26,433 nt of DNA from a virus. Made by a program: the position numbers and the translations under genes. Positions 2,843 to 26,433 of this stretch are shown here, piece by piece (the stretch's first letter is position 1; every line of letters begins with the position of its first letter). The stretch spans positions 1 to 26,433 of IMG/VR virus record IMGVR_UViG_3300043119_000268. One strand, written 5' to 3'. The notes under the pieces were generated by a model. It searched no databases. It saw only the letters and a program-made list of their open reading frames with translations, and was not told where the DNA came from.

Positions 2843-3376
2843 CTATGATTGTGCGTAACTGAGGAACTGTACATCGTTTACCAGCTCATCCGGAGCTAGC
2901 TGCATCAGGTCAATAACAATTAGGGTGTGGCGATTAGCCACTAGACCGGCTGGCTGTGTCTTGATAGGGCGGTAAACCTGACCCTTCCACACGACGCGGT
3001 ACTTGTTTGCAAGGTCGATAGACGGCTTAATCTTAGAGCGATCAGAGAATAGCTCTGAGCTGATATCGTACATGTCATCGATGTTGACAGTAAGGTGAAG
3101 GGTGTCTGTGTTGTAGAAACCACGGGTGTTTAGAGGGCTAGATCCCTCAGTAACTGAGGAACGAATAACACGTAGAGTGCTAGGCCCTGTCCATACTCGG
3201 CCGGTTCCGATAGGCTCTACATCGTACACCGCGTCTACAAGGCTGCTGACTGAGTTAAATTTCCACCATTCAGCTGAGTTACCTGCGGGATTGGCTAAAT
3301 CCTCAGTGATGCCTTCACTGATACGATCGGACTCAAAGTCCGCGTCAAATCTACCGCCAGGTGTATGTGCTCTCAT
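2843..3376 (-). CDS. Probable head-tail stopper / head-closure protein, 177 aa
   Basis: A 177-aa protein, first gene after the terminator-promoter pair at 3391-3465. The C-terminal half is beta-rich (YRVVWKGQVYRPIKTQPAG, then RHTLIVIDLMQLAPDEL). The order 'V-W-K-G-x-x-Y, G, R-H-x-L-I-V' is typical of the small barrel of head-closure proteins (SPP1 gp16 / HK97 gp9 type). The N-terminal part is polar with an E-W-W-K segment. The putative neck and tail-terminator genes follow it a little over 2 kb downstream, which fits. AGGTAATC immediately precedes the ATG and may be the very 5' end of the transcript. Function is inferred; the gene is secure. Confidence 0.6.
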   Translation of the reverse strand: MRAHTPGGRFDADFESDRISEGITEDLANPAGNSAEWWKFNSVSSLVDAVYDVEPIGTGRVWTGPSTLRVIRSSVTEGSSPLNTRGFYNTDTLHLTVNIDDMYDISSELFSDRSKIKPSIDLANKYRVVWKGQVYRPIKTQPAGLVANRHTLIVIDLMQLAPDELVNDVQFLSYAQS

Positions 3377-10154: not shown

Positions 10155-11218
10155 TAAGCTGTCGTCACCTCTCGGTTTACAAACACCTGACCGCGTAGGT
10201 AAGTGCGTGTAAAGGTAGGATCTGACAGAGAAGTTGCTTGGATATCCCAGGCGCATCGTACAGGAAGAATATCAGTCTGCTCTTTAGTAAGCGACACGGT
10301 CAGCTTCTTTAGAGTCGAGCTATTTACAGCAATACCCATAGTTGCCCACAACGTAGGCGATCCTGGGTAAGTACGGATCTGAGCCTTGAATACCAAGTCA
10401 TTAAAGTTAGTGTCGTCTGGGAAGTCTAGAGTTACAGAGAAGTTGTCGCCCTCTTCAATAACCAAGTCGTAGATTCCAACGGTAGTAGGAAGCGGCCCAC
10501 GACCAGTAAGGTCGTTCTGCAAATAGACTCTCTCCGGCTTTCTGCCGTCATCAATTTCCTGAGCCATGTAAACAGGTACAAGCTTGTTCGTTGTCCTGCT
10601 CACGCGGCGTAGAACGCCCATTTCGATACGCCAGAGGCCGATGTTAAGGGCAGAACAAATGTTGCGGTATTGTTCCTGGCGCTGGGCAATAAGTCCCATG
10701 AGCTGGCTGTAGCGCTGCGCTCGCGGGATTGTAACGCCATCCGGTGCTTGGATGTCGATATCGAAAGAAGCGTCTGTTGCCAGAGCGTATAGGGCCTCTA
10801 TGGTAGATAAGATCGTTATTGGATAGACCTCGACCTCTGGCAACATGCTAATGTTCATCTGTCGACCGAAACCGTCTGTGCGGTTATAGGTGTGCTGGGT
10901 CACAGCAGTATTAACAAAATACTCAATTTCGGCATCAGAGAAGTATCGGTAAACGCTACCAACTACCTTAAGGATAACGTTAGACGCAGGGGCAGTAACG
11001 GTATGAACAACACCAATACTCGCCTCAACTGTGTAGGTTGTTGGGTTGGTAAGGGTTGTGCTACCTGAAGTAACTAGAAGAGTGTTAGCATCAATCGGCT
11101 TAACGCCGAGATTAAAGTCTTTAGTTGCGCCGTCCCCCGTGAACGACTTAGTGAACTGACGAGGCTGGTCGTTCAGTTCAGTTCTTACCTTAGCCACTAG
11201 GTCTAAGAGAGTTGCCAT
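10154..11218 (-). CDS. Probable head-tail adaptor fused to an LtfC-like domain, 354 aa
   Basis: A 354-aa protein with AGGGG seven bases before the ATG. Residues 1-200 begin MATLLDLVAKVRTELNDQP and include helices around FSDAEIEYFVNTAVTQ and QRYSQLMGLIAQRQEQY; a 'V-R-x-x-L-N-D' N-terminus just after the capsid genes is typical of head-tail adaptors. Residues 248-354 look like an LtfC-like beta-sandwich: YDLVIEEGDNFSVTLDF, 'L-V-F-K-A-Q-I-R-T', LTVSLTKEQTDILP, and the ending RTYLRGQVFVNREVT. That domain is known mainly from actinobacterial proteins and phages and in phages often carries fibres. The gene is coupled by TAATG to the collagen-like fibre, which may attach here. Confidence 0.65.
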   Translation of the reverse strand: MATLLDLVAKVRTELNDQPRQFTKSFTGDGATKDFNLGVKPIDANTLLVTSGSTTLTNPTTYTVEASIGVVHTVTAPASNVILKVVGSVYRYFSDAEIEYFVNTAVTQHTYNRTDGFGRQMNISMLPEVEVYPITILSTIEALYALATDASFDIDIQAPDGVTIPRAQRYSQLMGLIAQRQEQYRNICSALNIGLWRIEMGVLRRVSRTTNKLVPVYMAQEIDDGRKPERVYLQNDLTGRGPLPTTVGIYDLVIEEGDNFSVTLDFPDDTNFNDLVFKAQIRTYPGSPTLWATMGIAVNSSTLKKLTVSLTKEQTDILPVRCAWDIQATSLSDPTFTRTYLRGQVFVNREVTTA

Positions 11219-24799: not shown

Positions 24800-25023
24800 T
24801 AGTTTTCGTACGCTTTCTTTACTTTAAGCTCTCGGGCTCTGTGTTGAGTGATGTCCTGAAGTAACTGAGCGCCGGCACTGGTATAGGTTCCTGGCCCCTC
24901 GTACTCGCCTTCAAATTCGCTTGGATCAACTAAAGCAGCTCTCATAGTAGCTGCCTTCTGAGCAGCTTTAGACATTCCGTGCTCTTCTAGCAGGTCAGGC
25001 AGCTGCTTGTCCTTCGGCTCCAT
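24799..25023 (-). CDS. Tagged small helical protein, 74 aa
   Basis: A 74-aa protein beginning MEPKDKQLPDLLEEHGMSKA with the shared tag. It continues as a helix (AAQKAATMRAALVDPSEF), an acidic glycine-rich turn (EGEYEGPGTYTSAG) and a C-terminal helix (QLLQDITQHRARELKVKK). Joined by TAATG to the HNH gene upstream and the zinc-binding gene downstream. Function unknown. Confidence 0.6.
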   Translation of the reverse strand: MEPKDKQLPDLLEEHGMSKAAQKAATMRAALVDPSEFEGEYEGPGTYTSAGAQLLQDITQHRARELKVKKAYEN

Positions 25024-25355
25024 TACTTCTCGTTTTCCTTCTTGCCGGCACGACGCTTGTTTTCCTTAGCGGTGTTAGCTCCGTGCTTAAGTGGGCGAAG
25101 GTTCGACATCTTGTCGTCAGAGTGATTGTTGTTCTTGTGGTCGACGTCGGTGCCCTTTGGGAGCTTGCCGTGCTTCTGCTCATACTTGAACTTAGCAGCA
25201 TCTACAGACGTGCGAGAACCGTCCTTGTTTACGACAGACATCATAGGGCGTCCGCCATTCTTAGCGGAACCCTTGAATGGTCCGTAGACCTTCTTACCAT
25301 CTTTAGTGGTAGCGGCCTTAGTCTTAGCCTTGCTTGCTGGTTTCTTCTCAGCCAT
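25023..25355 (-). CDS. HNH endonuclease-like protein, 110 aa
   Basis: A 110-aa protein with a Lys/Ala-rich N-terminus (1-30). The rest reads GGRPMMSVVNKDGSRTSVDA, KHGKLPKGTDVDHKNNNHSD and DKMSNLRPLKHGANTAKENK. The D72-H73 pair, Asn at 75-77, N85-L86 and N94 form the HNH pattern found in homing-type and phage HNH nucleases. These cut DNA with one metal ion. Phage HNH proteins can help packaging or act as selfish nicking enzymes. The tail KKENEK is Lys-rich like its neighbours. It sits inside a TAATG-chained operon, so it is probably a working phage gene rather than a recent insertion. Confidence 0.75.
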   Translation of the reverse strand: MAEKKPASKAKTKAATTKDGKKVYGPFKGSAKNGGRPMMSVVNKDGSRTSVDAAKFKYEQKHGKLPKGTDVDHKNNNHSDDKMSNLRPLKHGANTAKENKRRAGKKENEK

Positions 25356-25549: not shown

Positions 25550-25731
25550 TAGAAATTTCCTCTGTAAGGGTTGCGTGCGACGTCCGATGCCGCAATAGAA
25601 ACATTGTACCGCTGAACAGCACCTCTAGGACCGGTAAAGATACGATCGTTTACTCTGTGTACATCAGCTTCAAAAACGGGCTTTTTTGGGGTAAATACAC
25701 CCGATTGGAACTCGTGAACGCGGCCGGCCAT
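25549..25731 (-). CDS. Small protein, 60 aa
   Basis: A 60-aa protein beginning MAGRVHEFQSGVFTPKKPVF and ending SDVARNPYRGNF. It is beta-rich, mildly basic and has no Cys or membrane segment. HEFQSGVF is faintly like the 'E-F-S-x-G' repeat of the 132-aa protein next to terminase. It is linked by TAATG to the genes on both sides. No family is recognised. Confidence 0.6.
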   Translation of the reverse strand: MAGRVHEFQSGVFTPKKPVFEADVHRVNDRIFTGPRGAVQRYNVSIAASDVARNPYRGNF

Positions 25732-25904
25732 TAGTTCTCTTCCTTCTTTGGTTGCTCTTTTACTGACTTGTGCTTGATGCGGTTCTCAGGGTCGCCGCGG
25801 TAGGCGCTCATAGGACCGAATGGTGTACGACGCGCGATACGCTCGTCAGCCAGGTTGATTACTTCCGCATCCTTCTTAGGGAGCTGCGAGTCTTTAGGTT
25901 CCAT
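25731..25904 (-). CDS. Tagged small protein, first gene of the operon, 57 aa
   Basis: A 57-aa frame from ATG 25904 to a stop joined by TAATG to the next gene. It begins MEPKDSQLPKKDAEVINLAD and continues RIARRTPFGPMSAYRGDPEN, with a charged end (VKEQPKKEEN). It carries the clearest copy of the N-terminal tag found in four proteins of this operon. It is the first gene after the consensus promoter at 25952-25979, with a leader of about 40 bases. The ribosome site (GGA, close to ATG) is weak. Function unknown. Confidence 0.6.
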   Translation of the reverse strand: MEPKDSQLPKKDAEVINLADERIARRTPFGPMSAYRGDPENRIKHKSVKEQPKKEEN

Positions 25905-25951: not shown

Positions 25952-25979
25952 ATTATACTTAAGATTTTTTGCATGTCAA
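25952..25979 (-). promoter_or_regulatory. Consensus sigma-70 promoter, leftward
   Basis: Minus strand TTGACA (25979-25974), a 16-base spacer and TATAAT (25957-25952): both hexamers match consensus perfectly. Start is expected near 25945, about 40 bases before ATG 25904. A LexA half-site (TCGAAC, 25952-25947) touches the -10 box, but no second half-site follows at the right spacing. It drives the seven-gene operon and would be active with the host's main sigma factor. Confidence 0.85.
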
Positions 25980-26072: not shown

Positions 26073-26242
26073 GCGCCGCAGGAAAAAGTTACTATGCACG
26101 TTACCTGCTCCATACGATTGTTTAAGCAATAACCAAGAGAACCCGCCGATCCCGCTGCGCCGCCGTGCCCGCCACCCCCGCCGTTTTAGGCTACTGCCTA
26201 CCTTTTAGCACCTTCAATCGTTCCTGACACCTGGCGGGGTAG

Positions 26243-26258
26243 TCGAACAGATGTTCGA
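26243..26258. promoter_or_regulatory. LexA (SOS) box 1
   Basis: TCGAACAGATGTTCGA matches the actinobacterial and Bacillus LexA box (CGAAC-R-N-R-Y-GTTCG) at every defined base, with arms TCGAACA and TGTTCGA. It lies inside a wider inverted repeat (GGGGTAG at 26236-26242 and CTACCCC at 26265-26271). Host LexA would bind here and release after DNA damage. Confidence 0.8.
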
Positions 26259-26276
26259 TTAACCCTACCCCCCTGA

Positions 26277-26292
26277 GCGAACAAGTGTTCGA
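26277..26292. promoter_or_regulatory. LexA (SOS) box 2
   Basis: GCGAACAAGTGTTCGA again matches CGAAC-R-N-R-Y-GTTCG fully, with arms CGAACA and TGTTCG. Its centre is 34 bp from that of box 1, a little over three helical turns. GAGAAC follows at once, giving another partial half-site. It adjoins the -35 position of a possible rightward promoter. Confidence 0.8.
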
Positions 26293-26319
26293 GAACAGTC
26301 GTTATCATTCCGTTATAAA
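26291..26319 (+). promoter_or_regulatory. Possible rightward promoter under LexA control
   Basis: TATAAA at 26314-26319 is a reasonable -10 box. Seventeen bases upstream the -35 position (26291-26296, GAGAAC) is poor and touches LexA box 2. Weak -35 boxes are common in Actinobacteria. LexA on box 2 would block polymerase, giving SOS-dependent rightward transcription. This is inference from spacing. Confidence 0.4.
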
Positions 26320-26350
26320 GTATGTCTGTTAGCAGGATTGTTAGGCACTA

Positions 26351-26423
26351 GATTAGTAGTAGTTGGAGGGAACCAACTAATCGGCTAGGCGATTACCTAG
26401 ACACTATCCCGCAAGGGAGATAG
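26351..26423 (+). ncRNA. Three successive hairpins, possible structured leader RNA
   Basis: Downstream of the rightward -10 box come TAGTTGG/CCAACTA (26360-26379; extendable to GATTAG/CTAATC with a bulge), CTAGG/CCTAG (26385-26400), and CTATC/GATAG closing a GCAA loop (26404-26423). The window ends ten bases later, so the full element is not visible. It may be a 5' leader, a small RNA or part of a packaging site. I found no match to a known class. Confidence 0.35.
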
Positions 26424-26433
26424 GGGCTAGACA

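Follow-up and report, generated by a model that had tools for sequence, protein, structure and literature searches.

Most phages known to make use of host LexA are temperate. In the Bacillus phage GIL01, host LexA acts with the phage protein gp7 (PMC4551915, PMC6182141). Host LexA on several boxes at an early promoter gates the lytic programme there, and a classical CI repressor is absent; the same is predicted for the phage described here. However, GIL01 belongs to the tectiviruses, is temperate and has co-factors of its own (gp7, a LexA homologue), while the present phage is large and contractile-tailed, gave no match to the lysogeny-gene profiles used, and carries its LexA boxes beside MtrA-type boxes. 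The nearest published idea is the 'lytic deferment' of alphaproteobacterial phages controlled by CtrA (PMC9437464). These are also apparently virulent and have sites of a host master response regulator at phage promoters, but the regulator and the host phylum are different, and here the slots of a fixed hub hold LexA sites in some phages and MtrA or other sites in others. Another virulent phage, phi29, is likewise halted or released by a regulator of its host, Spo0A (cited in PMC9437464), although this is a sporulation regulator and the host belongs to the Firmicutes.

The nearest named phages are the Streptomyces phages BRock, LuckySocke and pSt2308 (Borockvirus group), with TerL about 54-55% identical. 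They share the contractile tail and a similar gene order but have no CGAAC-N4-GTTCG hub. LexA boxes in BRock-type Streptomyces phages were also considered and rejected, because the GAAC-N4-GTTC counts are not above control. The phage studied here is a contractile-tailed relative of BRock. The stretch that was analysed (the window, 26,433 bp) is the entire IMG/VR record IMGVR_UViG_3300043119_000268, so its right edge is a contig end and not a gene boundary. Two longer records extend it. G001 (39,985 bp) includes the window at 99.98% identity and continues 611 bp beyond the right edge. G002 (85,632 bp), whose TerL is 97% identical to that of the window, continues about 2.7 kb beyond. Terminase, portal and capsid genes were identified, and helicase, primase, polymerase and tail sheath genes were recognised by reading the G002 translations. 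The phage also encodes a RecA-like recombinase, a WhiB and a weak MerR-like protein.

The earlier note on this DNA had raised the case that no phage repressor is present, and our profile searches gave none. Peptidase_S24 (PF00717), LexA_DNA_bind (PF01726) and Phage_integrase (PF00589) had no match in five records of the group while control genomes matched, and Trans_reg_C (OmpR-type regulator) likewise had no match in the same five records with matching controls. Of the integrases these profiles cover the tyrosine type, and the phage records may be incomplete, with about 3 kb or more of the early arm possibly absent from the contigs. Within this scope a phage-encoded LexA, S24 repressor, integrase or OmpR-type regulator was rejected. 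TerL relatives were searched in about 85,000 bacterial genomes and none was found, so a prophage origin was rejected too. Since LexA, S24 repressor and tyrosine integrase were not found and the bacterial genomes searched gave no TerL relative, the phage is probably lytic, which is the simplest reading of these genomes.

Two LexA-type boxes at the right end of the window

The features of the region are as follows.

25731 to 25904, minus strand: ORF of 57 aa with which the leftward structural arm begins
25952 to 25979, minus strand: leftward sigma-70 promoter TTGACA-N16-TATAAT (12/12), which belongs to the structural arm, lies about 265 bp away from box 1 and is kept in G002
26187 to 26199, no strand: anchor A, TAGGCTACTGCCT, a TAGGC-N3/4-GCCT dyad; all 15 hubs have it 72-74 bp ahead of anchor B
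26243 to 26258, no strand: LexA (SOS) box 1, TCGAACAGATGTTCGA, in operator slot 1, ending 1-2 nt before the TAACCC element
26260 to 26273, plus strand: anchor B, TAACCCTACCCCCC, which separates the two slots; of 15 distinct hubs, 14 have TAACCC and one has TAAGGG
26277 to 26292, no strand: LexA (SOS) box 2, GCGAACAAGTGTTCGA, in operator slot 2, kept in G001, G002 and G023
26301 to 26316, plus strand: MtrA-type box GTTATCATTCCGTTAT, an 11-bp direct repeat at which an activator of the rightward early promoter is predicted to bind
26321 to 26357, plus strand: predicted rightward early promoter core, from comparison, with -35-like CTGTTA (26326-26331), 17 nt and -10-like TAGATT (26349-26354)
26361 to 26433, plus strand: leader of the rightward early unit, whose first ORF has 81 aa and, in G001, its start at window-equivalent 26436

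Two sites that match the LexA consensus, with centres 34 bp apart, had been noticed before, and both are present at 26243-26258 and 26277-26292. The centre distance is 34 bp in the window, G001 and G002 and 35 bp in the relative G023. With at most one mismatch, CGAACNNNNGTTCG (CGAAC-N4-GTTCG) is found three times in the window, where 0.49 matches are expected, and three were not reached in any of 100 dinucleotide shuffles; a chance match is thus very unlikely, as had been claimed. Only two copies in the window are perfect, and these are box 1 and box 2. Scattering of the motif over the genome, which would have spoken against control, is not seen: the 85.6-kb G002 has exactly two perfect copies, both at the corresponding hub position. 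Across 16 related phage records there are seven copies, six of them as hub pairs in G001, G002 and G023, and the motif read backwards as a control gives none. It is hardly credible that the boxes are chance palindromes without function, against which stand the shuffle statistics, the sole location in G002, the conservation of the slots in G001, G002 and G023, and the separate grouping of their TerL (below).

The box cores AGAT and AAGT both fit RNNY, and both boxes agree with the palindrome tCGAAC-N4-GTTCGa. The LexA consensus of S. venezuelae is tCGAAC-N4-GNNCGa (PMC9380542). Boxes of the same type are found in two actinobacterial MAGs, which were reached via the motif search and not via proof of being hosts. 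The first (G027, 2.0 Mb) has four copies of CGAACN4GTTCG and none of the reversed control. Two share a single intergenic region, and the other two precede recA-recX and dnaE2, respectively. Three of the four are CGAACATCTGTTCG; their core 14-mer and that of phage box 1 are exact reverse complements of each other, and one of these three precedes recA. In the second MAG (G030), the two boxes precede recA-recX and dnaE2. The phage boxes match the actinobacterial LexA box far beyond chance, and on this basis they are predicted to bind LexA.

A regulator encoded by the phage could recognise a LexA-like sequence instead, and the changes of slot content described below would then be immunity-type operator variation. 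Phage immunity regions typically vary their operators within a constant frame, many phage proteins have no assigned role, and a WhiB and a weak MerR-like protein are encoded. But no LexA-type DNA-binding domain or S24 peptidase occurs in the five records, the core 14-mer is identical to recA-type boxes of actinobacterial MAGs, and the slot contents of relatives resemble host motifs. We regard this explanation as quite improbable.

Tandem boxes of this type are not confined to the present group. At least 119 IMG/VR stretches have them, compared to 19 for the reversed control pattern. Among the matches listed, 61 of 108 distinct tandem boxes lie outside ORFs of 100 aa or more (control, 1 of 19), and 219 of 252 boxes have the RNNY core. 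Control of phage genes by LexA may therefore be widespread, and the earlier statement that direct LexA control is unusual has to be toned down. One further stretch, IMGVR_UViG_3300032523_001269 (10836-10893), has two LexA boxes, between which TTGTCCACA and TTATCCACA lie, and an MtrA-type repeat nearby.

MtrA-type boxes and the predicted early promoter

To the left of the hub every ORF runs leftward, starting at 25904. Control of this structural arm by the boxes was rejected, as the arm has its own perfect promoter; near the hub of more distant relatives, this sigma-70 promoter was not seen. The leftward arm also encodes a 110-aa HNH endonuclease-like protein (25023-25355, minus strand; HNH_3, matched on the G002 copy). 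To the right, a gene close beyond the edge had been proposed, and G001 provides it. The ATG of the 81-aa ORF comes three bases beyond the window, at about 145 bp from box 2, which places the boxes about 145-190 bp before the ORF. A second rightward ORF of 99 aa overlaps it in G001 and matches phrog_2267, a family without known function. In G002, small rightward genes run on to the contig end, and the far end (78.5-85.6 kb) has genes on the same strand; we read both as one early arm. At 79.4-82.9 kb, this arm of G002 encodes a CobS-like ATPase (phrog_249) and a large neighbour of CobT-like appearance.

Upstream of the predicted promoter, positions 26301-26316 fit the direct repeat RTAAC-N6-RTAAC. 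The MtrA site of C. glutamicum, (A/G)TAACAATttn(A/G)TAACAAT (PMC3353115), is the reverse complement of the form that the repeat takes in the phage. Exact copies of the 19-mer CGTTATCAWWYCGTTATAA occur in 31 genome stretches; about 17 of these are from actinobacteria, many with a high G+C content that makes a chance occurrence unlikely. In three mycobacteria it adjoins a 193-aa protein, which we read from its sequence as a probable EctA; in Streptomyces, MtrA is reported to activate the ect operon (PMC13189361). The direct repeat was at first read as a PHO box; this was rejected, since both the scan of genomes and the consensus in the literature indicate MtrA. These comparisons point to an MtrA-type box, with another OmpR-type regulator as a possible reader of the site.

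The repeat is abundant in the longer records. G002 has nine sites against about 0.8 in shuffles, and a further relative (G003) has 17 against about 1.0. Of these 26 sites, 24 are intergenic and nearly all lie in the early arm, before many early units. Over the 16 records, RTAACN6RTAACG occurs at 46 sites and its reversed control at none. In G003 the repeat stands at a fixed distance before GGGTATG-N12 and a -10-like hexamer, at about -40 to -57 from the expected start; in C. glutamicum, MtrA activates from upstream of the -35 (PMC3353115), which is the placement in G003. Direct repeats arrayed in 11-bp register are seen at 3306-3344 of G003. The distribution of MtrA-type boxes over the early arm suggests an early regulon run by an actinobacterial two-component system of the host. 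We found no earlier report of an MtrA-run phage early regulon in the literature searched.

The predicted start lies near 26361, placed by comparison only. The 37-bp core block recurs with 92% identity at a second early promoter of G002, where the MtrA box stands one helical turn further upstream, so the core does not depend on the MtrA box. This bears on the earlier proposal that box 2 touches the -35 of a promoter. Such a promoter needs TATAAA (26314-26319) as its -10, but TATAAA belongs to the MtrA-type box, and the better-supported core is further right; box 2 on a -35 was rejected. Similarly, the inverted repeat GGGGTAG/CTACCCC described around box 1 does exist (26237-26243/26265-26271), but its arms are lost in relatives, so it is probably incidental and was rejected as a structural element. 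In outline the earlier interpretation was right, while its promoter details found no support.

We consider it reasonably likely, judged from the arrangement of sites, that host LexA gates an MtrA-driven early promoter in the hub of this apparently lytic actinophage and that DNA damage relieves the gate. The hub lies between the leftward structural arm, with its own promoter, and the rightward small early genes. The host response regulator MtrA would switch on the rightward promoter, and is probably its activator because the -35 is weak and an MtrA-type box lies just upstream. In the undamaged cell, LexA dimers bound at both slots, directly next to the MtrA box on its upstream side, would keep the promoter down. 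During SOS, RecA-driven cleavage of LexA, induced by outside damage or by infection itself, would free it. Measured from the predicted start, the boxes are at about -70 to -83 and -104 to -117, which is far for simple occlusion and leaves the promoter core uncovered, so repression would have to act via MtrA or via upstream contacts of the polymerase. Box 2 and the MtrA box directly adjoin in G023, as would be expected for direct interference. Because LexA mainly represses in the bacteria studied, we infer repression relieved by SOS as the most likely sign and mechanism. As a counterpoint, the phage could block SOS early.

Anchors and operator slots of varying content

Eighteen IMG/VR stretches have TAGGCTACTGCCT followed by TAACCC, and with one more from a TerL relative they give 15 distinct hubs; since the hubs were collected by anchor patterns (45-75 nt allowed between elements), the identity of the anchors is partly due to selection. 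TAGGCTACTGCCT is invariant in the hubs (including L240), and a second copy occurs once elsewhere in the early arm of G002 (83161) and of G003 (81991). Slot 1 adjoins TAACCC, and slot 2 comes after a C run. In four hubs (L148, L232, L234 and L244), a G run (TAACCCTGGGGGGG) of similar length replaces the C run after TAACCC.

The contents of the slots vary. They are LexA box pairs in G001, G002 and G023, and 11-bp direct repeats GTTAY-N6-GTTAY, of the MtrA type, in G003, G014 and G016. In the G004-type hub (L233), slot 2 is GTTCACC-N4-GTTTACC-N4-GTTAACC, which tentatively resembles the actinobacterial PHO box, and a PHO-like content may likewise be present in L129. Pairs of TTATCCACA, a DnaA-box sequence, lie in or near the slots of G022 (L148) and G020 (L237). 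This content is tentatively DnaA-like, and the inner GATAAC could also be MtrA half-sites. The G019 hub (L234) has about five copies of AACGGACA, an operator-like repeat, around its slots.

In the TerL tree, the three phages with LexA-type slots do not form one clade (p-AU 0.0019), though TerL need not track the history of the hub. G023 has two perfect LexA boxes in its slots while the rest of its hub is unlike that of the window and its TerL groups apart, so the arrangement was either retained or acquired on more than one occasion. Hubs may have been exchanged, or LexA boxes may have been gained twice, and both suggest selection. There are also close relatives without LexA boxes in the hub, so LexA control is not needed for phages of this kind.

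The slots also bear on what bound LexA would do. The boxes might serve as decoys which, on multiplied phage genomes, draw LexA off the host SOS genes with little effect on the early promoter. They do lie upstream of the predicted promoter core and not on it, and a phage with its own RecA-like recombinase could profit from a relaxed SOS regulon. Yet two sites per genome are few, and a fixed slot filled with sites of other regulators in other phages fits promoter control better, so we hold a decoy role to be unlikely. LexA could also act in activation or DNA architecture, for example at an origin or packaging hub, rather than in repression. The slots of relatives hold extra MtrA sites, which there would be activator sites; two phages have the DnaA-box-like sequence, and an invariant TAACCC stands between the slots. 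We nevertheless doubt this role, given the mainly repressive action of LexA in studied bacteria, and keep to a LexA gate on the early promoter.

Meaning for lytic actinophages

The new elements here are that an apparently lytic phage combines LexA boxes with an MtrA-type early regulon, and that operators are exchanged in a rigid frame. The LexA boxes stand at a single hub that feeds early genes, in a phage in which no lysogeny gene was found with the profiles used. Beyond this phage, we put forward as a possibility, with less confidence than we would need to favour it, that a virulent actinophage lineage reads the state of its host through an exchangeable two-slot operator in a fixed early hub. 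It would swap sites for LexA (DNA damage), MtrA (cell cycle/osmotic) and perhaps PhoP or DnaA, each setting when infection proceeds or waits, as a non-lysogenic gate of the lytic programme. If this is true, lytic phages that abound in the environment may respond to damage or to the growth state of the host and adjust the time of lysis to it, and this would change how 'lytic' is read from genomes without an integrase.
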